Positions 14,397 through 30,424 of a stretch of 64,000 nucleotides of DNA are shown here, in pieces. How positions within the stretch are numbered: the stretch's first letter is position 1; each line of letters starts with the position of its first letter. The stretch is from a gamma proteobacterium symbiont of Ctena orbiculata (GTDB lineage: Bacteria > Pseudomonadota > Gammaproteobacteria > Chromatiales > Chromatiaceae), in contig QBVC01000019.1 in NCBI GenBank assembly GCA_003058495.1, forward strand, positions 62,001-126,000, in the 5' to 3' direction. A program made the translations under genes and the position numbers. The notes under the pieces were generated by a model that was not told the DNA's origin, searched no databases, and saw only the letters and a list, made by a program, of their open reading frames with translations.

Positions 14397-14816
14397 AAAC
14401 CACCCCGCTATGTTGTTACCTTATAGTCTAGACCCCGGAAAGGCAGCCGGCATTCGTTGCCGGTTGATTGTTTTGAGTATTTTTTACTATTTTACAATAA
14501 TCTATTCTAGCTTATTAATGTAATTTATAGATAAAGTCAGCACTACACAATGCTAAGAATATCGATTCCACCCCATAGTTCAATTATCCACGCCTTGCAT
14601 TGATCGAAATTAATTTTCATTCAAACCCGAGCTGTCACAATACTGTAATATTACTGGAATATATTTGTAATCTTCCTGTAATAATTGGCTCTCTCTTCAG
14701 TAGATAACAGTTAAACCATAAACAGCAACAATAAAGATTTTCAACCTTGAGCTGATTGCCGGAAAAACTTTTTTTACTGCGGTTTTCGTCATTCAACAAA
14801 TCTGAGGGTGTTCACA
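14397..14816. other. AT-rich divergent promoter region between nfeD and pstS
   Basis: This 420-base region is visibly AT-rich compared with both flanks. It contains the five-copy PhoB half-site array at 14632-14682 and the pstS ribosome site GAGG at 14804-14807. I see no further gene. TAGATA-like and TTAAAC-like hexamers after the array could be the pstS -10 but none is decisive. Confidence 0.5.
14632..14682 (+). promoter_or_regulatory. PhoB binding array (five half-sites at 11-bp spacing) upstream of pstS
   Basis: Five heptamers occur with starts at 14632, 14643, 14654, 14665 and 14676, every one exactly 11 bases from the last: CTGTCAC, CTGTAAT, CTGGAAT, TTGTAAT, CTGTAAT. PhoB binds direct repeats of CTGTCAT at 11-bp spacing, so this is a strong Pho box of two and a half units. 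It lies 135-185 bases before the pstS start and predicts induction by phosphate starvation. Confidence 0.88.
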
Positions 14817-15692
14817 ATGAGACAATTCTCTTTTGCCACAACATTGGTGGCTACCAGCCTGCTATGCATTTTTTCCGCACAGGCGGCGGATCGCACCGTG
14901 ATCCAGAACAAGGGGTCGGACACCCTGGTCAACGTCGCCCAGGCCTGGGCCGAGGAGTACGGCAAGGTTGACGCCAATGTGGCAGTCGCCGTATCAGGCG
15001 GCGGATCGGGTACCGGTATCGCGGCGATGATCAACGGCACCGTGGATATCGCCAACGCCAGCCGCCAGATGAAAAAGAAAGAGATCAACCTGGCGAAGTC
15101 GAAAGGCCAGGACCCCATCGAGCATGTGGTCGGTTATGACGCCCTCGCCGTCTTTCTGCACCAGAACAATCCGGCCGAAACCCTCACCTATGATCAGATA
15201 AAGGCGATCTACGGACGCGGCGGCAAGGCTACAAAATGGTCCGATGTGGGCTTTGAGGTCCCGGGCTGCAAGAATGGCGAGATCGTCGTCGTCAGCCGCC
15301 AGAACAACTCCGGCACCTACGCCTATTTCAAGAAAGAGGTGCTCGGCAAGAAAGGCAAGTATCGCCAGGGCACCTTGGACATGCACGGTTCGAAGGACGT
15401 GGTCGATCTCGTTGAAAAGACGCCTTGCGCCATCGGTTACAGCGGCCTGGCCTACGCCACGGACCACATCAAGATGGCCTGTGTCTCAAAAGCGGGCGGG
15501 GATTGTATCAGCCCCAGCGTGGAGACAGCGAGCGATCGCAGCTACCCCATTGCACGGCCCCTGTTCATGTACACCAATGGCGAACCCAAGGGTGCAGTCA
15601 AGGCCTATCTGGACTGGGTCAAGAGCGATGTAGGCCAGTGCATTCTGCTGAAAAAGGGCTATGCACCGATTCGTGGCGTAAGTTGCAATTAA
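14817..15692 (+). CDS. pstS: periplasmic phosphate-binding protein PstS
   Basis: A 291-residue substrate-binding protein for the phosphate ABC transporter. Signal peptide ends SAQA; the phosphate-binding loop S-G-G-G-S-G-T-G-I-A-A and D-I-A-N-A-S-R are present, as are V-V-S-R-Q-N-N-S-G-T and the C-terminal SGLAYA region. I chose ATG 14817, nine bases after GAGG; a GTG at 14808 abuts that site. Six cysteines in the second half suggest disulfides. First gene of the operon, under the PhoB array; a hairpin after its stop may let it be made in excess over the membrane subunits. Confidence 0.93.
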   Translation: MRQFSFATTLVATSLLCIFSAQAADRTVIQNKGSDTLVNVAQAWAEEYGKVDANVAVAVSGGGSGTGIAAMINGTVDIANASRQMKKKEINLAKSKGQDPIEHVVGYDALAVFLHQNNPAETLTYDQIKAIYGRGGKATKWSDVGFEVPGCKNGEIVVVSRQNNSGTYAYFKKEVLGKKGKYRQGTLDMHGSKDVVDLVEKTPCAIGYSGLAYATDHIKMACVSKAGGDCISPSVETASDRSYPIARPLFMYTNGEPKGAVKAYLDWVKSDVGQCILLKKGYAPIRGVSCN

Positions 15693-15732
15693 CCGGAATG
15701 GCAAAACCCGGTTTGGCGGACTGACATAGTCT

Positions 15733-15770
15733 TCCCAACCCCGGCAGCCAGATGCTTGCCGGGATTGGGA
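15733..15770 (+). promoter_or_regulatory. intra-operon hairpin between pstS and phoU
   Basis: TCCCAA-C-CCCGGCA (15733-15746) pairs with TGCCGGG-A-TTGGGA (15757-15770) with a single C/A mismatch and a ten-base loop. There is no T-run. Position after the binding-protein gene fits an mRNA-stabilising or attenuating hairpin that raises pstS relative to downstream genes. Confidence 0.6.
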
Positions 15771-15907
15771 CCGGCCATGCGCGTCGATTTCGCTATGGAA
15801 CTGGTTATCTAAACAGCAACTGCCTGCCTCTGACAGGCTTTCAACAATAAAACCTATCCAAAAGTCCGTTGTCACCAGTGACGGCGTTCAATGGGGAGCA
15901 TCAAACA

Positions 15908-16984
15908 ATGGGCCATCTTGAAGAACGACTGGAACGCGACCTGAAAGATATCCACGATCGCGTGGCGAAAATGGGCGCACAGGCACAGGAGGCGGTCAGG
16001 TATGCCGTGCAGGCCCTGCAGACGGGGGATAAAAAACTTGCCTATGCCACGGTGTTGAATGACAACCCGATCAATCGCAGCATGCGCGAGATCGATAATA
16101 CCTGTCATCGCTTTTTTGCCATCCACATACCGACCGGTGGACACCTGCGACTCCTCTCCTCGGTGATTCGCGCAAATATCGAACTGGAGCGGATCGGCGA
16201 TTATGCCGTCACTATCGCCCGTGAAGCAGCCCAGCTATCCCAGCCACCAAGCGGCGGGCTGGGCAAGGAGCTCGACCGCATCGCCAGCGAAACCATGAAC
16301 ATGCTGCAGCTGGCAATCTCCGCCTTTACCGAGCTCAATGCCGAAAGCGCCAAGAGCACCATGACCATGGCGAAGGAGATGGAGCACAACCTGGACATTG
16401 TCTATACAGAGATGATGGAGAACGACGAGCGCACCAAGGTCGAAGAGATCCTGGCGATTTTTGTCGTCTTCACTCAACTCAAGCGTGTAGCGGACCAGGC
16501 GAAAAACCTTTGCGAGGATACCCAGTTCGCGGTGACCGGTGAGCAGAAAACGCCCAAGATCTTCAATATCCTTTTTGTCGATGAAGACAACAGCAGCCTG
16601 AGCCAGCTGGCTGAGGCCATTGCCAGGATGAACTATCCGAACATAGGCAACTACCGAAGTGCGGGGCGGGTCAAGGCGGATGCGATCAATCCGCAGTTGG
16701 TCAAGTTCCTGGAAGAGAAGGGTATAGATTATGCTGACACCCTGCCCACTACCATCGATCAATTGACGCCCAAGGAGATATCCGACCAGCATATCATCGT
16801 CTCGTTGCAGGGCGAGGTGGAATCCTACCTGCCGCGCATGCCCTTCCACACGTCGGCCCTTACCTGGGGCCTGGGCGAGGCGCCTGAGGACGAGGATTTC
16901 CATGAGTACGAATCGATCTATCGCGAGCTGGCCATATTGATCAAGGACCTGATGGAACTGTTGCGTGGCGAGGGGGCGAGCTGA
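15908..16984 (+). CDS. phoU: PhoU fused to a degenerate low-molecular-weight phosphatase/ArsC-like domain
   Basis: A 358-residue protein, far longer than normal PhoU (about 235). Residues about 1-215 are PhoU: two three-helix repeats with metal-binding E-L-E-R-I-G-D and L-K-R-V-A-D motifs. Residues about 220-300 align with low-molecular-weight phosphatase/arsenate reductase: N-I-L-F-V-D-E-D-N-S-S-L-S corresponds to N-V-L-F-L-C-T-G-N-S-A-R-S of the ArsC at 29299, followed by YRSAG and a region like NPxxVxxLxExGID. The catalytic Cys and Arg are replaced (Asp, Leu), so it cannot be a Cys-phosphatase. A helical tail follows. Start ATG 15908 has GGGGAG nine bases upstream; an earlier TTG at 15869 does not. 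It sits second in the pst operon, before pstC. Confidence 0.88.
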   Translation: MGHLEERLERDLKDIHDRVAKMGAQAQEAVRYAVQALQTGDKKLAYATVLNDNPINRSMREIDNTCHRFFAIHIPTGGHLRLLSSVIRANIELERIGDYAVTIAREAAQLSQPPSGGLGKELDRIASETMNMLQLAISAFTELNAESAKSTMTMAKEMEHNLDIVYTEMMENDERTKVEEILAIFVVFTQLKRVADQAKNLCEDTQFAVTGEQKTPKIFNILFVDEDNSSLSQLAEAIARMNYPNIGNYRSAGRVKADAINPQLVKFLEEKGIDYADTLPTTIDQLTPKEISDQHIIVSLQGEVESYLPRMPFHTSALTWGLGEAPEDEDFHEYESIYRELAILIKDLMELLRGEGAS

Positions 16985-16985
16985 A

Positions 16986-17918
16986 ATGTCCGAGTCGCAA
17001 ACCCTGCAACAGTCAATGCCGGCGGATTTCGACAGTCGCAACCTGGACTGGTACATCGACAAGCTGGTCCAGGCCGTCGTCTTCGTCGCCGGTATATCGG
17101 CCATCATCTTCATCATCGGCATCTTTGTATTCATCACCATCGAGGGCTTTGGTTTTCTCCTCGAGGACTTCAGCTTCAGGGAGTTCTTTCTCTCCCCCTT
17201 TTGGGAACCTTCCGACGAGGATGCGCCGGAGTACGGCATCCTCGCGCTGGTGGCGGGCACCGCCAGCGTTACCGGCCTGGCGATGGTGGTTGCGATCCCC
17301 TTCTCCCTCGGCGCCGCCATCTTCATTGGCGAATTCGCCACCGGCAAACTGAGGGAGTCTCTCAAGGTTTTGGTTGAACTGCTGGCCGCCATCCCCTCGG
17401 TGGTCTGGGGCTTTATCGGCCTCTCCATCATGAATCCGTTGATCATCGACCTGTTCGATGTGCCGGTGGGCCTGAACGTGCTCAATGCCGGCATCATCCT
17501 CGGCCTGATGGCGGCGCCGATCATGACCTCCATCGCGGAGGATGCATTGAAGGCGGTGCCCGATCGCTATCGGGAAGCGGCTGAGGCGCTGGGCGCCACC
17601 CGCTGGCAGGTGATCTTCAAGACCGTCCTTCCCGCCGCGAAGAACGGCCTGCTCGGGGCGGTGCTGCTGGGTGTGGGGCGTGGATTCGGCGAGACCATGG
17701 CGGTGTTGATGGCCACCGGCCATGCGGTGAACATCCCCAACAGCCTGTTCGATCCGGTACGCGCGCTGACCGCGACCATCGCCGCGGAGCTGGGAGAGAC
17801 CGCCGTCGGCTCGCCTCACTACCAGGCGCTGTTCACCATCGGCATCTTCCTCTTCATCATCACCTTCCTGATCAACCTCACCGCGGATCTCATCGTCCGC
17901 GGCATCCGCAAAGGTTAA
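16986..17918 (+). CDS. pstC: phosphate ABC transporter permease PstC
   Basis: A 310-residue inner-membrane permease with six predicted membrane segments. The coupling loop is E-A-A-E-A-L-G-A-T-R-W-Q, the EAA motif that docks onto the ATPase. A short cytoplasmic N-terminus (MSESQTLQQSM) precedes the first helix. I chose ATG 16986, two bases after the phoU stop, with the GGCGAGGGGG purine tract inside the end of phoU as ribosome site. The product pairs with PstA. The periplasmic loop between helices 1 and 2 is about 50 residues. Confidence 0.93.
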   Translation: MSESQTLQQSMPADFDSRNLDWYIDKLVQAVVFVAGISAIIFIIGIFVFITIEGFGFLLEDFSFREFFLSPFWEPSDEDAPEYGILALVAGTASVTGLAMVVAIPFSLGAAIFIGEFATGKLRESLKVLVELLAAIPSVVWGFIGLSIMNPLIIDLFDVPVGLNVLNAGIILGLMAAPIMTSIAEDALKAVPDRYREAAEALGATRWQVIFKTVLPAAKNGLLGAVLLGVGRGFGETMAVLMATGHAVNIPNSLFDPVRALTATIAAELGETAVGSPHYQALFTIGIFLFIITFLINLTADLIVRGIRKG

Positions 17919-17924
17919 GCCGCC

Positions 17925-18794
17925 ATGTTCGCCGAATCTGAATTGAATCAAAAGAACAAACGGGTTCAGAACCTGTTCCTCATCCTCTTTCTGATGATGA
18001 CCGTTTTGTTGGTGGTGCCGGTGATCATCATTCTTACCACCCTGATCGTCAAGGGCGGCAGCATCATCTCCATCGATTTTCTCTTTACCGATCCGACCAA
18101 CGGCATGACCGCGGGGGGCATCTTTCCCGCACTGCTGGGAACCATCTGGATCGTCGCGGTAGCACTGCTGGCATCGGTTCCCCTCGGCGTCGCGGCGGCC
18201 ATCTACCTCAACGAGTATGCCGGCGACAACTGGTTCACCCGGCTTATTCAGCTGGCGATCATCAACCTCGCCGGGGTGCCGTCGATCGTCCATGCCCTGT
18301 TCGGCGTCGGCGCCTTCGTCATCTTCTTCGGTTTCGGCACCAGCATCCTCGCCGCCAGCCTGACCCTGGCGATCATGACCCTGCCGGTGGTGATCGTCTC
18401 CACCCGGGAGTCGTTGCGCGCCGTCCCCCAGGCCTTCAGGGAGGCCTGCTGGAACATGGGGGCGACCCGCTGGCAGACCATCAAGCGGGTAGTGCTGCCC
18501 AATGCGGTCAGCGGCATCCTCACCGGCGTCATCCTGGAGGTGTCGCGCACCACCGGCGAAACCGCGCCGATCATGTTCACAGGCGCCGCCTTCTTCCTGC
18601 CTTTCCTGCCCCAGGGCGTGTTCGATCAGACCATGGCCCTCTCCCTGCATCTGTTCGTGGTCTCCACTCAGGTGCCCGGGGTGCCGGACAACCTGCCCTA
18701 CGGTGTCGCCCTGGTGCTGATCGCCATGGTGCTGCTGATGAACAGCATCTCCATCGCATTCCGCATGTATCTGCGAGGTAAAAAGAAATGGTAG
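17925..18794 (+). CDS. pstA: phosphate ABC transporter permease PstA
   Basis: A 289-residue inner-membrane permease with six membrane segments. The ATPase-docking loop is E-A-C-W-N-M-G-A-T-R-W-Q, and S-R-T-T-G-E-T-A-P matches the conserved PstA/PstC helix motif. It starts seven bases after the pstC stop and overlaps the first ATPase gene by seven bases, so it is translationally coupled on both sides. Because two different ATPases follow, PstA and PstC may each contact a different nucleotide-binding subunit. Confidence 0.93.
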   Translation: MFAESELNQKNKRVQNLFLILFLMMTVLLVVPVIIILTTLIVKGGSIISIDFLFTDPTNGMTAGGIFPALLGTIWIVAVALLASVPLGVAAAIYLNEYAGDNWFTRLIQLAIINLAGVPSIVHALFGVGAFVIFFGFGTSILAASLTLAIMTLPVVIVSTRESLRAVPQAFREACWNMGATRWQTIKRVVLPNAVSGILTGVILEVSRTTGETAPIMFTGAAFFLPFLPQGVFDQTMALSLHLFVVSTQVPGVPDNLPYGVALVLIAMVLLMNSISIAFRMYLRGKKKW

Positions 18795-19609
18795 ACATGA
18801 GCCTCAATACAGCAGTAGCCGAAGTAGTGCCTGAAGAGGCGGCCGAAGCCCCTGCCCCGGTCAAACTCGGGGTCAACGGTCTGACTATCAAGTATGGCGG
18901 AACACCCGCCCTCAGCGATGTCAACCTGGAGGTTCGCGAACATGAGATCTTCGGCATCATCGGGCCGGCCAACGCCGGTAAGACATCCTTTCTCAAGGCC
19001 CTCAACCGCATGGATACCTTCAACTCCAACATGAGTGTGGAAGGCAGGATCCTCTTCAACGGCCTCGATGTGTATAAACTGAACAACATCTATGCCCTGC
19101 GCAGCCGCATCGGCGTCGTCTTCCCGCTTCCCGTCGGCCTGCCGTTGACGATCTATGAGAATGTCGCCCTCTCACCCCGCCTGCGCGGCATCAACAAGAA
19201 GCGCGACCTGGATATCATCGTCGAGCGTTGCCTTACCCGGGCCGCGCTCTGGGACGAGGTGAAGGAGAGGCTCGACTCCCTCGGCAGCCTTCTCTCCGGC
19301 GGCCAGCAGCAGCGCCTCACCATCGCCCGCGCCCTCTCCCAGGAGCCGGACCTGCTGATGCTGGACGAATTCTCCATCGCCGTGGACCCGGTGACCACCA
19401 TGCGCATCGAGGATGTGCTGAAGGAGCTGAAGAAGGACATGACCATCATCCTGGTCACCAACCTGGTGCAGCAGGCGAGACGGCTGGCCGATCGCACCGC
19501 CTTCTTTCTGGAAGGGCAATGCGTTGAGATCGGCGAGACCGAGGATCTCTTCACAGGGGAGGTGGAAGACCAGAGAACAAGGGACTATGTCGAGGGCAAA
19601 TTCGGTTGA
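18788..19609 (+). CDS. PstB-like ATPase 1, intact signature motif but altered Q-loop and H-loop
   Basis: A 273-residue ABC ATPase of the PstB family with an extra acidic/Pro-Ala N-terminus (residues 1-27). Motifs: Walker A G-P-A-N-A-G-K-T (59-66; PstB normally GPSGCGKST), signature L-S-G-G-Q-Q-Q (169-175, canonical), Walker B LLMLDE with E194 present. The Q-loop glutamine is replaced (V-F-P-L-P, P113) and the switch histidine is Asn (L-V-T-N-L, N225). Such changes usually abolish hydrolysis at the site this subunit builds, while its intact signature can still complete the partner's site. Start ATG 18788 overlaps pstA; an alternative is ATG 18797. Confidence 0.9.
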   Translation: MVDMSLNTAVAEVVPEEAAEAPAPVKLGVNGLTIKYGGTPALSDVNLEVREHEIFGIIGPANAGKTSFLKALNRMDTFNSNMSVEGRILFNGLDVYKLNNIYALRSRIGVVFPLPVGLPLTIYENVALSPRLRGINKKRDLDIIVERCLTRAALWDEVKERLDSLGSLLSGGQQQRLTIARALSQEPDLLMLDEFSIAVDPVTTMRIEDVLKELKKDMTIILVTNLVQQARRLADRTAFFLEGQCVEIGETEDLFTGEVEDQRTRDYVEGKFG

Positions 19610-19649
19610 TAAACAACCATTGTTAGAAAGACACCATATGAACGTTGGT

Positions 19650-19781
19650 GGCGCCTGACGGTTGTCTTTCGCAGTAGCGGCAGGGATGCCGCGTAAGCCC
19701 CGCCAGCACAGGGATGCGCCCGAAGGAAGTGCCCTTGGGGTATCCTGTCGGGGCGTCGGAGAAAGATAACCGTCAGGTGCC
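19650..19781 (+). ncRNA. long structured RNA-like hairpin between the two pst ATPase genes
   Basis: The 21-base arms 19650-19670 and 19761-19781 pair along their whole length if two G-U wobbles are allowed, which favours an RNA fold in the direction of the operon. Inside are GCGGCA-GGGA-TGCCGC (19677-19692, a GNRA-type tetraloop) and further pairing GCCCCG (19697-19702) with CGGGGC (19749-19754). The 262-base gap otherwise has no gene. It could be a stabilising or processing element, a small RNA, or a dispersed repeat. No second copy is in the window. Confidence 0.55.
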
Positions 19782-19871
19782 GAGGATTTTAAAAAGTACT
19801 CGTTGATTGCGGACAGACTCTTTCTAAACAGAGTACAAACAGTAAGACCCTAACAAATACTAGTAACTACA

Positions 19872-20651
19872 ATGAACACACCAGCCCCCGAGTACGCCAT
19901 CAAGACCAGCCAGCTCAACCTTTGGTACGGGACCTTCCAGGCCCTCTTCGATGTCGACCTCAACATCCGCAACGGCATGATCACCTCCCTGATCGGCCCC
20001 TCCGGCTGCGGCAAGTCGACCTTCCTGCGCAGCGTCAACCGCATCAACGAACGCCTCGGCTATGTGCGCATCGAAGGCAACATCGACGTCCTGGACAAGA
20101 ATATCTACGATCCCGACGTGGAACTGGTCCAGGTGCGCAAACAGATCGGCATGGTCTTCCAACGCCCCAATCCCCTGCCCATCTCGATCCGCGACAACAT
20201 CCTCTTCGGCCACAGAATTCACGCCAAAAACAAAAGATCGGCAAAGGCCGACGAGGAAGAGATCGTCGAGTCCTCCCTGCAGCAGGTGCTGCTCTGGGAC
20301 AAGGTCAAGGACCGCCTCAACCAGAAGGCAACCGAGCTCTCATTGGAAGAGCAGCAGAAGCTCTGTATCGCGCGATTGCTGCCGGTAAAACCGAGTGTTT
20401 TGTTGATGGATGAGCCCTGCTCCGCCCTCGACCCCAAGGGCACCGCCGCGGTGGAGGAGCTGATCTGGGAACTGCGCGGCCAATACACCATCCTCATCGT
20501 CACCCACAACATGGCCCAGGCCCGGCGCGCCAGCGAGGAGTGTATCTTCATGTTGCTGGGCAAGGTGGTGGAGCATCAGGCGACGGAGGATCTGTTTGTG
20601 ACGCCGGACAAGAAAGAGACCGCGGATTATATTGAGGGGCGGTATGGGTGA
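19872..20651 (+). CDS. pstB: PstB-like ATPase 2, intact Walker/Q/H motifs but degenerate signature
   Basis: A 259-residue ABC ATPase closest in look to standard PstB: Walker A G-P-S-G-C-G-K-S-T (42-50), Q-loop V-F-Q-R-P-N-P-L-P (Q97), Walker B LLMDE (E181), switch V-T-H-N (H212). The ABC signature, normally LSGGQQQ, is L-S-L-E-E-Q-Q (156-162), losing both glycines that touch ATP across the dimer. Its defects are thus the mirror image of those in ATPase 1, which predicts an obligate heterodimer with one working site. It is separated from ATPase 1 by the structured hairpin. No clear terminator follows; an eight-T run at about 20731 has only weak pairing before it. Confidence 0.9.
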   Translation: MNTPAPEYAIKTSQLNLWYGTFQALFDVDLNIRNGMITSLIGPSGCGKSTFLRSVNRINERLGYVRIEGNIDVLDKNIYDPDVELVQVRKQIGMVFQRPNPLPISIRDNILFGHRIHAKNKRSAKADEEEIVESSLQQVLLWDKVKDRLNQKATELSLEEQQKLCIARLLPVKPSVLLMDEPCSALDPKGTAAVEELIWELRGQYTILIVTHNMAQARRASEECIFMLLGKVVEHQATEDLFVTPDKKETADYIEGRYG

Positions 20652-23644: not shown

Positions 23645-24940
23645 CTAACCCAGCATGTCGTCGATGACGTTCTTGAACCAGCTGTGCGCGTAGCTGACCT
23701 CGCGCTTGCGCTGCTCGGCCGTTGCATCCATGGGTGACAGCCCCCCCGCCCCTTTGATGGGCAGGATCGTGTTGCTCGCCTCGTCCAGGGTGTAGACCGC
23801 GGCCACGGATATGCCGTGGGCCTCGCCGAGGATGCTGTAGCAGGTGTTGACGTAGGTGGGATCGCCGGGATCCATGCCGTTGAACTTGGCGACGATGGCG
23901 GCGGCGGCGACCTTGGCCTGGGAGTTGGCGGCATAGGCCGATTTCGGCATCTTGGCGGCGCTGGAGGCGTCCCCCAGTACATAGATGTCGGGGTGCAGCG
24001 TCGATTCGAAGGTGCGTTTGTTGACCGGGCACCAGTCGCCCTCGACAAGGCCGGAGGCATAGGCCACCTTGCCCGCCTTCTGCGGCGGGATGATGTTGAT
24101 CACGTCGGCGGTGAACTCCTCGATCTCGGCCTGCAGGGTGCGGGTGGAGGGATCGATCTCCTCCACTGTGCCGCCGCCGGCGGCGCCGACCCACTCGATC
24201 ATCGCATTCTCCGTGCCGAAGCCATAGAGCTTCGACCAGCCCTGCCTGAACAGCCCCTGCTTGGAGAAGGCGTCCTTGGGGTCGAGGATGAGTATCTTCG
24301 CCTTCGGTTTATGGTGCTTGCAGTACATCGCAATCTGCGCGGCCCGCTCGTAGGGTCCGGGGGGGCACTTGAAGGGATTGGGCGGGGCGACGATGATCAC
24401 CCTGCCCCCCTCGGGCATCGACTCGATCTGCTTGCGCAGGGTGACCGTCTGCGAACCGGCGAACCAGGCGTGGGGGATGGTCTCGGCGACCTCGGGATTG
24501 TAGCCCTCGATCGCCTCCCACTTGAAATCGACACCGGGTGAGACCACGCAGGCGTCATAGTCGAATCTCCCGCTTTCCGCCGTGGCGACCTGTTTCTTGT
24601 CCGGCTCGATGGCCGTCACCCTGTCGATGACGATATCCACGCCATGCCGCTTGAGGCCATCGTAGCCGAAGGTGATGGAGTCGATGGTGCGATCGCCGCT
24701 CAATACCTCGTTGCTCATGAAACAGGAGGTGTAGTTTTTCTTGGCCTCGATGAGGGTGACCTTCACATCGGGATTGAGCTTGCGCAGGTACTTGGCGGCG
24801 GTGCTTCCCCCAACGCCGCCGCCCACGATCACCACCCTGGGGCTGTTGGCCAGGGCAAGGGTCGGAAACAGCAGCGAGCTGCCCGCCAGGGTAAGGCCAC
24901 CACCGACGCGGATGAAATCTCTGCGATTGATTTTATTCAT
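23645..24940 (-). CDS. fccB: flavocytochrome c sulfide dehydrogenase, flavin subunit
   Basis: A 431-residue FAD protein that oxidises sulfide in the periplasm. The N-terminus is a Tat signal (N-R-R-D-F-I-R-V-G-G). FAD-binding V-V-I-V-G-G-G-V-G-G-S follows, and the redox-active cysteine pair is visible as D-A-C-V-V-S-P-G-V and G-D-W-C-P-V-N. The C-terminal FCSD flavin-binding tail (AEQRKREVSYAHSWFKNV) is complete. I chose ATG 24940 with GGAAG before it; frame extension to 25111 runs antisense into fccA and is not coding. It follows fccA by 17 bases, and both follow the multiheme cytochrome gene, so the three form one leftward operon. Confidence 0.93.
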   Translation of the reverse strand: MNKINRRDFIRVGGGLTLAGSSLLFPTLALANSPRVVIVGGGVGGSTAAKYLRKLNPDVKVTLIEAKKNYTSCFMSNEVLSGDRTIDSITFGYDGLKRHGVDIVIDRVTAIEPDKKQVATAESGRFDYDACVVSPGVDFKWEAIEGYNPEVAETIPHAWFAGSQTVTLRKQIESMPEGGRVIIVAPPNPFKCPPGPYERAAQIAMYCKHHKPKAKILILDPKDAFSKQGLFRQGWSKLYGFGTENAMIEWVGAAGGGTVEEIDPSTRTLQAEIEEFTADVINIIPPQKAGKVAYASGLVEGDWCPVNKRTFESTLHPDIYVLGDASSAAKMPKSAYAANSQAKVAAAAIVAKFNGMDPGDPTYVNTCYSILGEAHGISVAAVYTLDEASNTILPIKGAGGLSPMDATAEQRKREVSYAHSWFKNVIDDMLG

Positions 24941-24957
24941 GTCTTCCTTCTCCGCAA

Positions 24958-25551
24958 TCAGTGCTTGCTGCCGTAGTAGTGGATCAACGCGGGCATTGCC
25001 TGTTCGCCCTGCTCTTCGATGGCGGCATCCACCTTGCGTTTCATCTTTCTCGGGTAGGTGCGCCTGCCCTCGATGAAGTCCTGCATGCTGAAGTCGAGAT
25101 AGGGTATCCATTGTCCGGCCAGGGTACCGGAGTCCCCCGCGCGGCCGCCCTCCTCATGACACTTCTCGCAATGGGTGTCGTGCAGCTGCTTGCCGAGCTC
25201 GACCAGCTGCCGGTCGGTCTTCTGCACATGCAGACGCAGCTTCTGCTTGGCGAAGAACCAGGCCATGGCCTTGATCTGCTCGTCGCTGTAGCCCTTGGCG
25301 ATGCGGTTCATGATGGTGGAGTTGCGCTGATCGCGCTTGTAGGCATCCATGGCATCGATGAAGACATCCGGATCCATCGCCGCGATGGAGGGGCTGGAGG
25401 GACCGACGCTGGAGCCGTCTGTACCGTGGCAGCCGGCGCAGGTGAAGGCCAGCGCCTGGCCCGACGGTCCCGACTGGGCAGTCAGGGGAAGCGACGCCAG
25501 CATAACCAGGAGTAGATTGCGAACTCTCTTGCTCATCCAATTTTCTCTCAT
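24958..25551 (-). CDS. fccA: diheme cytochrome c subunit of sulfide dehydrogenase
   Basis: An exported cytochrome with two heme c sites, C-A-G-C-H (about residue 40) and C-E-K-C-H (about 135), each starting a cytochrome c553-like domain. It takes electrons from FccB. Starts at 25566, 25554, 25551 and 25536 are all possible; I prefer 25551, preceded by GGGGGAGAAG, although ATG 25536 gives the neatest signal peptide (MSKRVRNLLLVMLASLPLTA). The upstream cytochrome gene ends at 25566, overlapping the earliest possible start. Confidence 0.9.
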   Translation of the reverse strand: MRENWMSKRVRNLLLVMLASLPLTAQSGPSGQALAFTCAGCHGTDGSSVGPSSPSIAAMDPDVFIDAMDAYKRDQRNSTIMNRIAKGYSDEQIKAMAWFFAKQKLRLHVQKTDRQLVELGKQLHDTHCEKCHEEGGRAGDSGTLAGQWIPYLDFSMQDFIEGRRTYPRKMKRKVDAAIEEQGEQAMPALIHYYGSKH

Positions 25552-28179: not shown

Positions 28180-29265
28180 CTAGGGAGAGCGCGGTGACTC
28201 CGCCTGGTACCAGTTTTTGGTTCTGTTCACGATCTTGACTACCGAGAGCATGACCGGCACTTCCACCAACACGCCCACCACCGTTGCCAAGGCCGCCCCG
28301 GATTGAAAGCCGAACAGCACGATGGCGGTGGCAACGGCCAATTCAAAAAAATTACTCGCGCCAATCAAGGCTGAAGGCGCCGCAACACAATGTTCGACGC
28401 CAAACTTTTTGTTTAGGAGATAGGCCAATCCTGAATTGAAATAGACTTGAATCAGGATAGGTACAGCCAGCAGAAGAATAACCATCGGTTGCGCCAATAT
28501 CTGCTCGCCCTGGAATCCAAACAGCAGGACAAGGGTGGTGAGCAACGCAATCAGCGAAGGCGTATGAAGCGAATCAAGTCGTTTTTGCAGCAGCTCGTCC
28601 CCGCCTGCCGAGATTAAGTGCCTTCTCCATATTTGTGCAAAGACAACAGGCAGGACGATATAGAGCACGACTGACAGAAACAGTGTATCCCAGGGCACAG
28701 TGATTGCCGAAAGCCCCAGCAACAATGCCACAATCGGACCAAATGCAAATATCATTATGGTGTCATTCAGGGCGACCTGAGTTAAGGTGAAGTTGGGCTC
28801 TCCGCCTGACAGACGGCTCCAGACGAACACCATCGCGGTACAGGGGGCGGCAGCCAGCAAAATCAGTCCCGCGATATAACTGTCGAGTTGGTGCGCCGGC
28901 AGATAGGGTGCAAACAGATTGTGGATGAACAACCAGCCCAGCAAGGCCATGGAGAAAGGCTTGACCGCCCAGTTGATGAACAGCGTGACACCCACCCCTT
29001 TCCAATGCTCTTTAACACGATGCAGTGCAGTGAAATCCACTTTCAACAGCATCGGGATAATCATCAACCAGATCAGGATGGCGACAGGCAGGTTGACATG
29101 GGCGATCTCCAGCTTTGCAATATTTTGAAACAGAACCGGAAACAGATGCCCGAGCCCGATACCGGCAAAAATGCAAATGGCCACCCACAACGATAAATAG
29201 CGCTCGAAAAAATCCATCTCACTGCCAGCGGAATGCTTGGCGGTGACTTCACATTGTGCACTCAT
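28180..29265 (-). CDS. acr3: ACR3-family arsenite efflux permease
   Basis: A 361-residue inner-membrane carrier with about ten membrane segments that exports arsenite. The conserved cysteine lies in A-A-P-C-T-A-M-V-F-V-W-S, the hallmark of ACR3 rather than ArsB, and the later S-A-L-I-G-A-S-N-F-F-E-L helix is also typical. It is the third gene of a leftward arsR-arsC-acr3 cluster, 33 bases after arsC. Start ATG 29265 has GGGAAT before it. Confidence 0.93.
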   Translation of the reverse strand: MSAQCEVTAKHSAGSEMDFFERYLSLWVAICIFAGIGLGHLFPVLFQNIAKLEIAHVNLPVAILIWLMIIPMLLKVDFTALHRVKEHWKGVGVTLFINWAVKPFSMALLGWLFIHNLFAPYLPAHQLDSYIAGLILLAAAPCTAMVFVWSRLSGGEPNFTLTQVALNDTIMIFAFGPIVALLLGLSAITVPWDTLFLSVVLYIVLPVVFAQIWRRHLISAGGDELLQKRLDSLHTPSLIALLTTLVLLFGFQGEQILAQPMVILLLAVPILIQVYFNSGLAYLLNKKFGVEHCVAAPSALIGASNFFELAVATAIVLFGFQSGAALATVVGVLVEVPVMLSVVKIVNRTKNWYQAESPRSP

Positions 29266-29298
29266 CGATATTCCCTGAGCTGTCGTAGCGGTACCAGT

Positions 29299-29823
29299 TT
29301 AAGCGGCGGAATCTCGTGACGAATCGAGACCGATTTTACCGATTTCGTCGAGTTTTTCCTGAAGCTTCAGCTTATCCAGGGACTCAAGAGGCAGACTGAC
29401 AAAAATAGAAATCCGATTTTGCAATTCAGAAAACGCTTTTGAAAATGCCGCCTTTTTTTCAATATCGTTGCCTTCGATGGCGGCTGGATCAGAAATGCCC
29501 CAATGAGCCGTCATCGGTTGCCCAGGCCATACCGGACAAACCTCGGCGGCGGCTTTGTCACAAACCGTGAAAACAAAATCCATGGTCGGCGCGTCATCAG
29601 CGGCAAATTCCTCCCAATCCTTGCTTCTCAACCCTTCGGTCAGATAGTTGTTGCGCTTCAGCTCCAGGACCGTGTAGGGATTGAGCTCACCTTTCGGATT
29701 GCTGCCGGCGCTGTATCCGCGAAATCTTCCGCGCCCAAAACGGTTGATCAGGCTTTCGGCAAACACGCTGCGGGCCGAGTTGCCGGTACAAAGAAATAGC
29801 ACATTATAGATTTTGTCATTCAT
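29299..29823 (-). CDS. arsC: arsenate reductase, low-molecular-weight phosphatase type
   Basis: A 174-residue cytoplasmic enzyme that reduces arsenate to arsenite for export. The catalytic loop C-T-G-N-S-A-R-S follows the first beta strand (NVLFL), and D-F-V-F-T-V-C-D-K and C-P-V-W-P-G carry the further cysteines. The segment YSAGSNPKGELNP matches the phosphatase fold. ATG 29823 with GGAGG upstream is the start; the longer frame to 29850 lacks support. This gene is a useful local comparator for the phosphatase-like domain on PhoU at 15908-16984. Confidence 0.93.
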   Translation of the reverse strand: MNDKIYNVLFLCTGNSARSVFAESLINRFGRGRFRGYSAGSNPKGELNPYTVLELKRNNYLTEGLRSKDWEEFAADDAPTMDFVFTVCDKAAAEVCPVWPGQPMTAHWGISDPAAIEGNDIEKKAAFSKAFSELQNRISIFVSLPLESLDKLKLQEKLDEIGKIGLDSSRDSAA

Positions 29824-29886
29824 CTCGCATCCTCCAATTGCAATGAGCAAAAGAGCGAAAAAACCGTCAGGTTTGAGCGCCTGCCG

Positions 29887-30240
29887 CTAAGCACAACGAC
29901 TGCTCTCCGAGCCATCCAGCATCCCCGCCAAGACACTTTTATCAGACCGGTAAGGCTCTGTATTTTCCGAACCCAGTGCCGTTGCCTTAAGTACTTTCAA
30001 CACCCACTCTGGCAGGTCGGGGTTGATCCTGTAATAGATCCACTGGCCTTCACGGCGATCGCTTACCAGGCCCACCTCTCGCAACTGCGCGAGGTTCCTG
30101 GACATGCTGGGTTGAGCCGCGCCGATCGCTTGGGTGAGTTCACAGACACAAAGCTCTCTATGTTTCAGTAACAGCACGATGCAACGCAGGCGCGTTGAAT
30201 TTGCCAACCCACTGAATACGGAATCCGGATTGATATTCAT
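29887..30240 (-). CDS. arsR: ArsR-family arsenic-responsive repressor
   Basis: A 117-residue winged-helix repressor. The metal site E-L-C-V-C-E-L in the DNA-recognition helix region is the classical ArsR type that binds arsenite, and Q-P-S-M-S-R-N-L-A-Q-L is the recognition helix. I chose ATG 30240 because the upstream frame to 30273 is occupied by a perfect inverted repeat that looks like the operator. First gene of arsR-arsC-acr3, hence autoregulation is expected. Confidence 0.9.
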   Translation of the reverse strand: MNINPDSVFSGLANSTRLRCIVLLLKHRELCVCELTQAIGAAQPSMSRNLAQLREVGLVSDRREGQWIYYRINPDLPEWVLKVLKATALGSENTEPYRSDKSVLAGMLDGSESSRCA

Positions 30241-30245
30241 CTTTT

Positions 30246-30271
30246 GATATATGTCATATTCGGCATATATC
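30246..30271. promoter_or_regulatory. probable ArsR operator
   Basis: GATATATG (30246-30253) and CATATATC (30264-30271) are perfect inverted arms separated by ten bases, lying directly in front of arsR. The symmetry, AT-rich core and position fit a self-binding ArsR site. Confidence 0.65.
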
Positions 30272-30424
30272 ATAATCCAGATATGTTTTACTTATATTTC
30301 AGGAATATTTCATGTGCGGGAAACGCCGCATAACCGCCACCTCCGGTTGCGGTTAATCTGTTTGCGGCCAGGAGCTGGTCGCCGGTCTTTTTTTACATAT
30401 ATCTCCAACCACTCGGAATCCTGA

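Follow-up and report, generated by a model that had tools for sequence, protein, structure and literature searches.

A PhoU protein fused to a catalytically degenerate ArsC-like domain in a Pst-type operon with two differently altered PstB ATPases

The window, a 64,000-nucleotide stretch of DNA from a gammaproteobacterial symbiont of Ctena orbiculata, contains a pst operon with two unusual features: its PhoU protein continues into a domain of the low-molecular-weight phosphatase (LMW-PTP)/ArsC type that has lost the catalytic residues, and its two PstB-type ATPases have complementary motif losses. We consider it probable, at roughly 0.6 for the explanation as a whole, that the fusion protein, PhoU-psiArsC, serves specifically to regulate a Pst importer of a distinct kind, itself under phosphate control and driven by an asymmetric pair of ATPases, and that this variant represents a mode of phosphate-uptake control not recognised so far. 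The genes are ordered pstS, phoU-psiArsC, pstC, pstA, pstB1 and pstB2 and span positions 14808 to 20651 of the window:

14632..14682, + strand: Pho-box-like array upstream of pstS, five 7-mer half-sites at exact 11-nt spacing (14632, 14643, 14654, 14665, 14676)
14808..15692, + strand: pstS, phosphate-binding protein (TIGR02136 3e-73, above cut-off; ATG start at 14817)
15908..16984, + strand: phoU-psiArsC fusion, 358 amino acids from ATG
15908..16546, + strand: PhoU part of the fusion, residues 1-213 (TIGR02135; Foldseek to 4q25; residue counts)
16556..16969, + strand: predicted dead LMW-PTP/ArsC-like domain, residues 217-354 (phmmer, AlphaFold2 model, Foldseek)
16580..16603, + strand: former P-loop, residues 225-232, DEDNSSLS in place of ArsC CTGNSxRS (residue counts in 113 fusions)
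16965..17918, + strand: pstC, permease (TIGR02138 8.4e-83)
17925..18794, + strand: pstA, permease (TIGR00974 2.8e-79)
18788..19609, + strand: pstB1 (TIGR00972 276 bits, below the cut-off of 343)
19872..20651, + strand: pstB2 (TIGR00972 326 bits, below the cut-off of 343)

An in-frame TTG lies upstream of the ATG of the fusion, at 15869. TIGR02135 matches residues 7-213 of the window protein at 1.2e-40 (139.4 bits), above the cut-off of 130.25, which was applied to this protein only, and the PhoU half matches Pseudomonas aeruginosa PhoU (4q25) with a Foldseek E-value of 1.2e-10 and a TM-score by target of 0.93. All 113 distinct fusions that we gathered have the first PhoU metal motif, ERIGD (E94/D98), unchanged. 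The second reads KRVAD in the window, with Lys replacing Glu; across the fusions, position 192 is Lys in 65, Glu in 46 and Val in 2, and Asp196 is present in 86. The preliminary description of a complete PhoU with two metal motifs thus stands as regards PhoU itself, by fold, profile and pst-operon setting, but not as regards two intact E(D)xxxD motifs. The protein is like the PhoU of PstSCAB-PhoU systems (E. coli; P. aeruginosa, 4q25) in its fold, its match to TIGR02135, its place in a pst operon and its first metal motif; unlike ordinary PhoU, it has the dead ArsC domain at its C-terminus, its gene lies between pstS and pstC, and its second metal motif is often altered.

The C-terminal domain was compared with known structures and protein families. 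In phmmer searches of the PDB, it matched the ArsC chain 2ipa_B at 6e-8 over 108 residues and B. subtilis ArsC (1jl3) at 7e-7, and BLASTP aligned the fusion with the window's own ArsC (29299-29850, - strand) at 37% over 51 amino acids (E 1e-5). The NCBIfam ArsC models match the fusion at about 1e-11, yet with 45 bits against a cut-off of 215; Pfam LMWPc matches the window fusion at 4e-4 with 21.0 bits, just under its cut-off of 23.2, and is found in 56 of 72 family members at E <= 0.01. Because TIGR02135 passes its cut-off while LMWPc falls below that of Pfam, such fusions could easily pass for ordinary PhoU in annotation. An AlphaFold2 model of the whole fusion, made from a 30-row alignment (pLDDT 87.9, pTM 0.72), matched ArsC 1jf8 at a Foldseek E-value of 1.1e-7. 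A model of the domain alone, made from 72 rows (pLDDT 89.3, pTM 0.87), had 1jf8, the ArsC of pI258, as its best match, with an E-value of 1.4e-10, a TM-score of 0.88 by target length and an rmsd of 1.9. By homology and predicted structure, residues 217-354 are an LMW-PTP/ArsC fold. Our alignments A1 and A2 contain 30 of the 33 fusions found among relatives, the other three (L184-L186) having been confirmed as fusions separately; alignment A3 contains 71 of 80 named loci and the window, eight near relatives and L073, which has a shortened domain, being left out.

In what we take to be the catalytic numbering of ArsC, the enzyme uses Cys10 and Arg16, the redox cysteines Cys82 and Cys89, and the general acid Asp105. 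The phmmer alignment places Asp225 of the window protein at Cys10, Leu231 at Arg16, Gln301 and Leu308 at Cys82 and Cys89, and Gly323 at Asp105, and retains Asn13 and Ser17 as Asn228 and Ser232. Where the enzyme has its catalytic Cys, 111 of the 113 distinct fusions have Asp, 2 have Glu and none has Cys; the 80 named loci that form part of this collection, kept from 108 in a pattern scan of genome contigs, lean towards Asp because one of the three seed patterns contains DEDN (the other two do not), and the whole-genome profile searches were built from members of that set. Position 231 is Leu in 72 fusions and Arg in 1, positions 301 and 308 are never Cys, and position 323 is Asp in 1. Compared with the thioredoxin-coupled ArsC/LMW-PTP enzymes (1jf8, 1jl3), with which it shares the fold over about 130 residues, the P-loop Asn and Ser and the SAG and WG segments, the domain therefore lacks the catalytic and redox cysteines in all 113 cases and the general-acid Asp and the Arg each in 112. 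Sporadic mutation or sequencing error is excluded by the agreement of the 113 homologues on Asp/Glu at the Cys position, and an active enzyme is excluded, as far as sequence can tell, by the family-wide loss of catalytic residues. These results bear out the preliminary description in its claims that an LMW-phosphatase-like domain follows PhoU and that its P-loop Cys has become Asp and its Arg Leu: the structure prediction and fold search proposed there gave an LMW-PTP-like answer and not another fold, and the search for the same architecture yielded 113 distinct fused homologues, in none of which the Cys of an intact Cys-x5-Arg loop was found.

Around parts of the former active site, the domain is more strongly conserved than elsewhere. 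Phe313, Trp320, Phe223 and Ala235 are invariant in the 113 fusions and D225 nearly so; Asn228 is present in 105, position 227 is D or E in 108, position 314 is His in 103 and Arg in 10, and position 232 is always small (Ser 69, Gly 36, Ala 8). Mean entropy is 1.07 bits at residues 311-320 and 1.33 in the P-loop (225-232), whereas the bulk of the domain has 2.10; the counterpart of Cys82-Cys89 (299-308) stands out less, with 1.58. The domain as a whole (1.90 bits) is more variable than the PhoU part (1.57 bits). Among seven chosen pairs, the dN/dS of the domain is 0.05-0.10 in five, 0.34 on few changes in one, and saturated in dS in the last. The domain is complete to its end in 112 of the 113 fusions; in L073 its last stretch is missing in frame, which may be an assembly error. 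Chance can be excluded, since 113 distinct homologues carry the fusion and dN/dS is low. On the whole, the sequences point to a maintained pseudoenzyme.

To place the fused domain among its relatives, we compared it with stand-alone proteins in a tree, built by a quick method only, in which the 22 fused rows (21 left after de-duplication of 32 named loci, plus the window) lie on one side of a branch with SH-aLRT 99, apart from 30 stand-alone rows. The latter, two of which are identical, all have an intact Cys-x5-Arg. The tree is consistent with a single origin of the fused domain. Ten class-level long-frame candidates (L174-L183) for fusions with an intact ArsC domain gave no match to the window PhoU (phmmer, E 1e-3).

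The operon around the fusion gene is conserved in order, and its two ATPases deviate from the consensus in different motifs. All 80 named loci have the window's gene order as far as each contig reaches, with pstC of L095 and pstB2 of L111 split into two frames and an assembly gap in L048; PstB1 was not obtained from 14 of the 80, owing to the end of the contig or, in L048, to the gap. For the motif counts we used 66 PstB1 and 64 PstB2 homologues plus the window, all scoring >250 bits to the window proteins and hence biased to the window type. Within this set, PstB1 has Walker A GPxNxGKT and LSGGQ in 67 of 67 rows and the Asp-Glu of Walker B (LDE), but its Q-loop reads FPLPVGLP in place of FQ (Gln to Pro, 66 of the 66 rows reaching it) and its H-switch VTN in place of VTH (His to Asn, 65 of the 65 rows reaching it). 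PstB2 has an intact Walker A (GPSGCGK(S/T)), Q-loop (FQRPNPLP), Walker B (MDEPCS) and H-switch (VTHN), and its signature LSGGQ is changed to LSLEE in 64 of 65 rows and to LSLEA in one. PstB1 is well conserved, with a mean column identity of 83% over 40 rows (alignment A4, 39 of 63 usable rows plus the window). The losses on the two nucleotide-binding domain (NBD) chains are complementary and leave one consensus composite site: in a PstB1-PstB2 dimer, should one form, a single composite site would be of consensus type and the other would lack Q, H and signature. The earlier remark that an unusual transporter adjoins the fusion is borne out by these losses. The same genome (G000) also has an ordinary pstSCAB-phoU operon (contig C22:39178-44613; loci L002, L173), and the PstB encoded there retains every one of the motifs (Walker A, Q-loop, LSGGQ, Walker B, H), so the variant is a second Pst system in this organism.

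The fusion and the PstB1 type go together in three genome samples, which overlap in part and share ancestry, so that the counts are not independent events. Among 142 relatives, both were found in the same 33 and neither in the other 109; fusions were called at a domain score of at least 102 bits (next match 36), and the PstB1 type stood out at 477 bits or more in 32 genomes and at 290 in the partial G084, against at most 271 for ordinary PstB. The class sample (n=369) has both in the same 8 genomes. The phylum sample (n=398) has both in 22, the fusion only in G534, where it lies at a contig end, and PstB1 only in G521 and G603. These last two, G521 with two copies (L188, L189) and G603 with one (L190), have the order pstS-pstC-pstA-pstB1-pstB2 with no phoU between pstS and pstC. 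G524 has, besides a copy with PstB1, a second set (L195, contig C60:1-9000), pstS-fusion-pstC-pstA, in which no PstB gene was found within the 3.1 kb beyond pstA. In G477, a second fusion (L193, L194, contig C75) lies, without PstB1, beside a shortened PstC-like protein and a PstB2-like ATPase that is altered in Walker A, signature and H-switch; these genes have the look of a paralogous set that is further decayed or regulatory. The fusion and PstB1/PstB2 are thus each found without the other, rarely, and the pairing is not strict.

Carriers of the fusion include Ca. Thiodiazotropha, the endosymbionts of Lamellibrachia and Escarpia, Sedimenticola, Ca. Accumulibacter, Magnetococcales and many gammaproteobacterial MAGs; Halobacteria, Nitrospirales, Polarisedimenticolaceae, Kiloniellales and Deltaproteobacteria appear in the titles of a few MAGs, which may be mislabelled contigs. 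Presence in the family is patchy, and 4 of 22 genomes of the window's own genus are without both the fusion and PstB1. To see which carriers have a further Pst system, we searched for PstB at E <= 1e-60, a threshold below which an ordinary PstB could be missed. At this threshold, A. regalis, A. phosphatis and A. meliphilus have one PstB1-type match each and no ordinary PstB; of the other genomes in this set of 12 from the named loci, three further Accumulibacter have both kinds, two Magnetococcales the PstB1 type only, three more both kinds, and that of L048 neither. A second set of 12 fusion genomes has the PstB1 type only in 10 and both kinds in 2, nine of these 10 belonging to one family, in which identical coordinates also place the Magnetococcales record of L096 (G513 = G838).

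The setting of the operon bears on what its regulator may respond to. A Pho-box pattern allowing 3 mismatches occurs 16 times in the window, with 15.6 expected by chance and hence no excess overall, and 3 of the 16 matches fall within 50 nt before pstS. Upstream regions of pstS were available from 71 of 81 loci (the 80 and the window), the others having no pstS match >300 bits or too little upstream sequence. A site at <=2 mismatches is present in 17 of the 71, against 0.35% of shuffled regions, and one at <=3 mismatches in 23, against 1.7% of shuffles, with none in the remaining 48; 14 of the 23 positive regions come from the window and the loci most closely related to it (L033-L041, L043, L051, L054, L065) and are not independent. 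A PhoB-type regulator gene follows pstB2 within 200 nt on the same strand in 12 of the 57 loci with >900 nt of downstream sequence, and the one representative scanned has response-regulator and Trans_reg_C domains. Other recurrent neighbours in the 80 loci, whose flanks are of unequal length, are a Na/Pi cotransporter (8), a CHAD protein (7) and Pit (4). These results support phosphate regulation of the operon, as judged from its sequence.

Arsenic does not have such a footing. The window does contain an arsenic-type cluster at 28180-30273 (- strand), with an ArsR-family regulator, an LMWPc protein with CTGNSAR (ArsC) and an SBF-family permease, but it lies about 7.5 kb past the end of the operon. 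In relatives, no ars gene was seen near the operon among the 40 of 316 neighbour clusters listed (by eye; operon flanks only) or in ten representatives scanned with Pfam. Membership of the operon in an arsenic island was accordingly rejected. The earlier suggestion of an arsenate sensor is not supported: nothing beyond the ancestry of the domain speaks for it, while the operon has Pho-box-like repeats and PhoB-type, Na/Pi, Pit and CHAD neighbours.

If the fusion is the dedicated regulator of this importer, its working could be pictured as follows. PstB1 and PstB2, which are adjacent and complementary in their motifs, would form a heterodimer in which ATP is hydrolysed efficiently only at the site made of the PstB2 Walker motifs and the PstB1 LSGGQ. 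By analogy with E. coli PhoU, which contacts PstB and PhoR (PMC4423584), the PhoU half may dock on the PstB pair. The psiArsC domain would act as a non-catalytic reader: the mouth of its former active site (Asp225, Asn228, Phe313, His314, Trp320) may bind a partner surface, on PstB1/PstB2 or PhoR, or a small ligand, and this binding would set when PhoU brakes the pump or signals. With the P-loop Arg missing from 112 of the 113 fusions, we lean slightly towards docking on a partner over direct binding of phosphate; the conserved mouth could also be structural only. A more far-reaching version would be a separate class of phosphate importer in which PhoU gates a one-engine PstB1/PstB2 heterodimer and senses the phosphate state, as ligand or through a partner, via the re-purposed acidic P-loop of its dead ArsC domain; this importer would be the sole Pst in some polyphosphate-accumulating Accumulibacter. 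We advance this version tentatively, at rather less than even odds.

Other roles for the domain deserve comparison with that of a dedicated regulator. As a direct oxyanion sensor, it would bind cytoplasmic phosphate (or arsenate) in the old P-loop, with Asp225 taking the proton of HPO4 and occupancy switching PhoU. This idea agrees with the retention of Asn228 (105/113) and of a small residue at 232, with the rank of the P-loop among the more conserved stretches and with the phosphate-import setting of the genes; a loop without Arg in 112 of 113 fusions and with an acidic residue for Cys in all of them is, however, ill-suited to a plain oxyanion pocket, and the neighbours examined (the 40 listed clusters of 316 and the ten Pfam-scanned representatives) include no ars gene, so that we think it unlikely. 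Less probable again is an Asp-based phosphoryl receiver, in which Asp would replace Cys as the nucleophile, Asp227/Glu226 would aid Mg binding, and phosphoryl transfer would be of the receiver/HAD kind. The stretch hhF[VIL]DEDN after the first strand, with an acidic residue at 225 throughout the 113 fusions and D/E at 227 in 108 of them, presumably resembles the first motifs of receiver and HAD domains. Such domains also have motifs with Lys, Ser/Thr and a further Asp, but no conserved columns of this sort were noticed by eye in the table of alignment columns. Moreover, Pfam returned no match other than LMWPc in the 72 members at E <= 0.01, and a receiver or HAD domain proper was rejected on this absence of a family match.

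The domain might also have no regulatory role, as a structural spacer or a fading relic. Two genomes (G521, G603) manage with the pump and no adjoining phoU, sequence conservation is lower in the domain than in the PhoU part, and L073 is without the last stretch of the domain, if that is not an assembly error. A relic would hardly be expected to show dN/dS of 0.05-0.10 in five of seven pairs, former active-site residues invariant across Gammaproteobacteria, Accumulibacter, Magnetococcales and others, and a domain kept to its end in 112 of 113 fusions; we rate this explanation about as improbable as the phosphoryl receiver.

Several known systems resemble the proposed regulator and pump in part. 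We know of no PhoU-type partner for ABC transporters with a degenerate site. Enterococcus faecalis has tandem PstB1/PstB2 with identical key motifs (PMC12096839), whereas here each subunit has its own complementary losses; B. subtilis likewise has two pstB genes, and a PstBA-PstBB pair has been modelled for it (PMC11466899). One consensus and one degenerate site, as in PstB1/PstB2, are described for Pdr5, CFTR, TAP and the fused-NBD importers RbsA/NupO. In Pdr5, one NBD has an altered signature and the other an altered H-loop (PMC7756269), an arrangement like that of PstB1/PstB2, and Walker residues that PstB1 keeps are lost as well. The present case differs in being a phosphate importer with separate NBD chains that keep the Walker A Lys, its asymmetry being known from sequence only. 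A degenerate ATP site in an importer is not new in itself, RbsA/NupO being a precedent.

For the fusion and for the asymmetric PstB pair, we found no description in the open-access literature, the scope of our search (most subscription papers lie outside it). A 2026 survey of PhoU clades (PMC13170248) was restricted to proteins made up of two PhoU domains without any further Pfam domain. By what route PhoU senses the state of the Pst pump and relays it has long been an open question. In the variant, PhoU has an additional domain that is separable and shows a defined conserved face, and the two distinguishable ATPase subunits of the pump allow each half of the motor to be mutated alone. Carriers of the variant include chemosynthetic symbionts (Thiodiazotropha, tubeworm) and Ca. 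Accumulibacter, the organism behind wastewater phosphorus removal; pst genes of Accumulibacter are up-regulated at low phosphate in a study whose available text does not mention the variant (PMC12604563).

Further genes recur around the operon. A 2-phosphoglycerate-kinase-like gene lies near it in 16 loci (for example, L076:3950-5146, L084, L085), the representative scoring below the NCBIfam cut-off. A phosphoglycerate-mutase-like gene occurs in 11 loci, in some beside the kinase-like gene; the two neighbours hint at a 2,3-bisphosphoglycerate phosphate store. Genes for a CHAD-domain protein and a ParA-like ATPase are located upstream of pstS in L052, L055, L057, L059, L060, L066 and L071. CHAD proteins are linked to polyphosphate. 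In three Thiodiazotropha loci (L041:13802, L042:4779, L043:12238), a second PstS-like gene directly follows pstB2. Elsewhere in the window, a gene at 23645-25111 (- strand) encodes the flavoprotein subunit of flavocytochrome c sulfide dehydrogenase, which fits a sulfur-oxidising bacterium.
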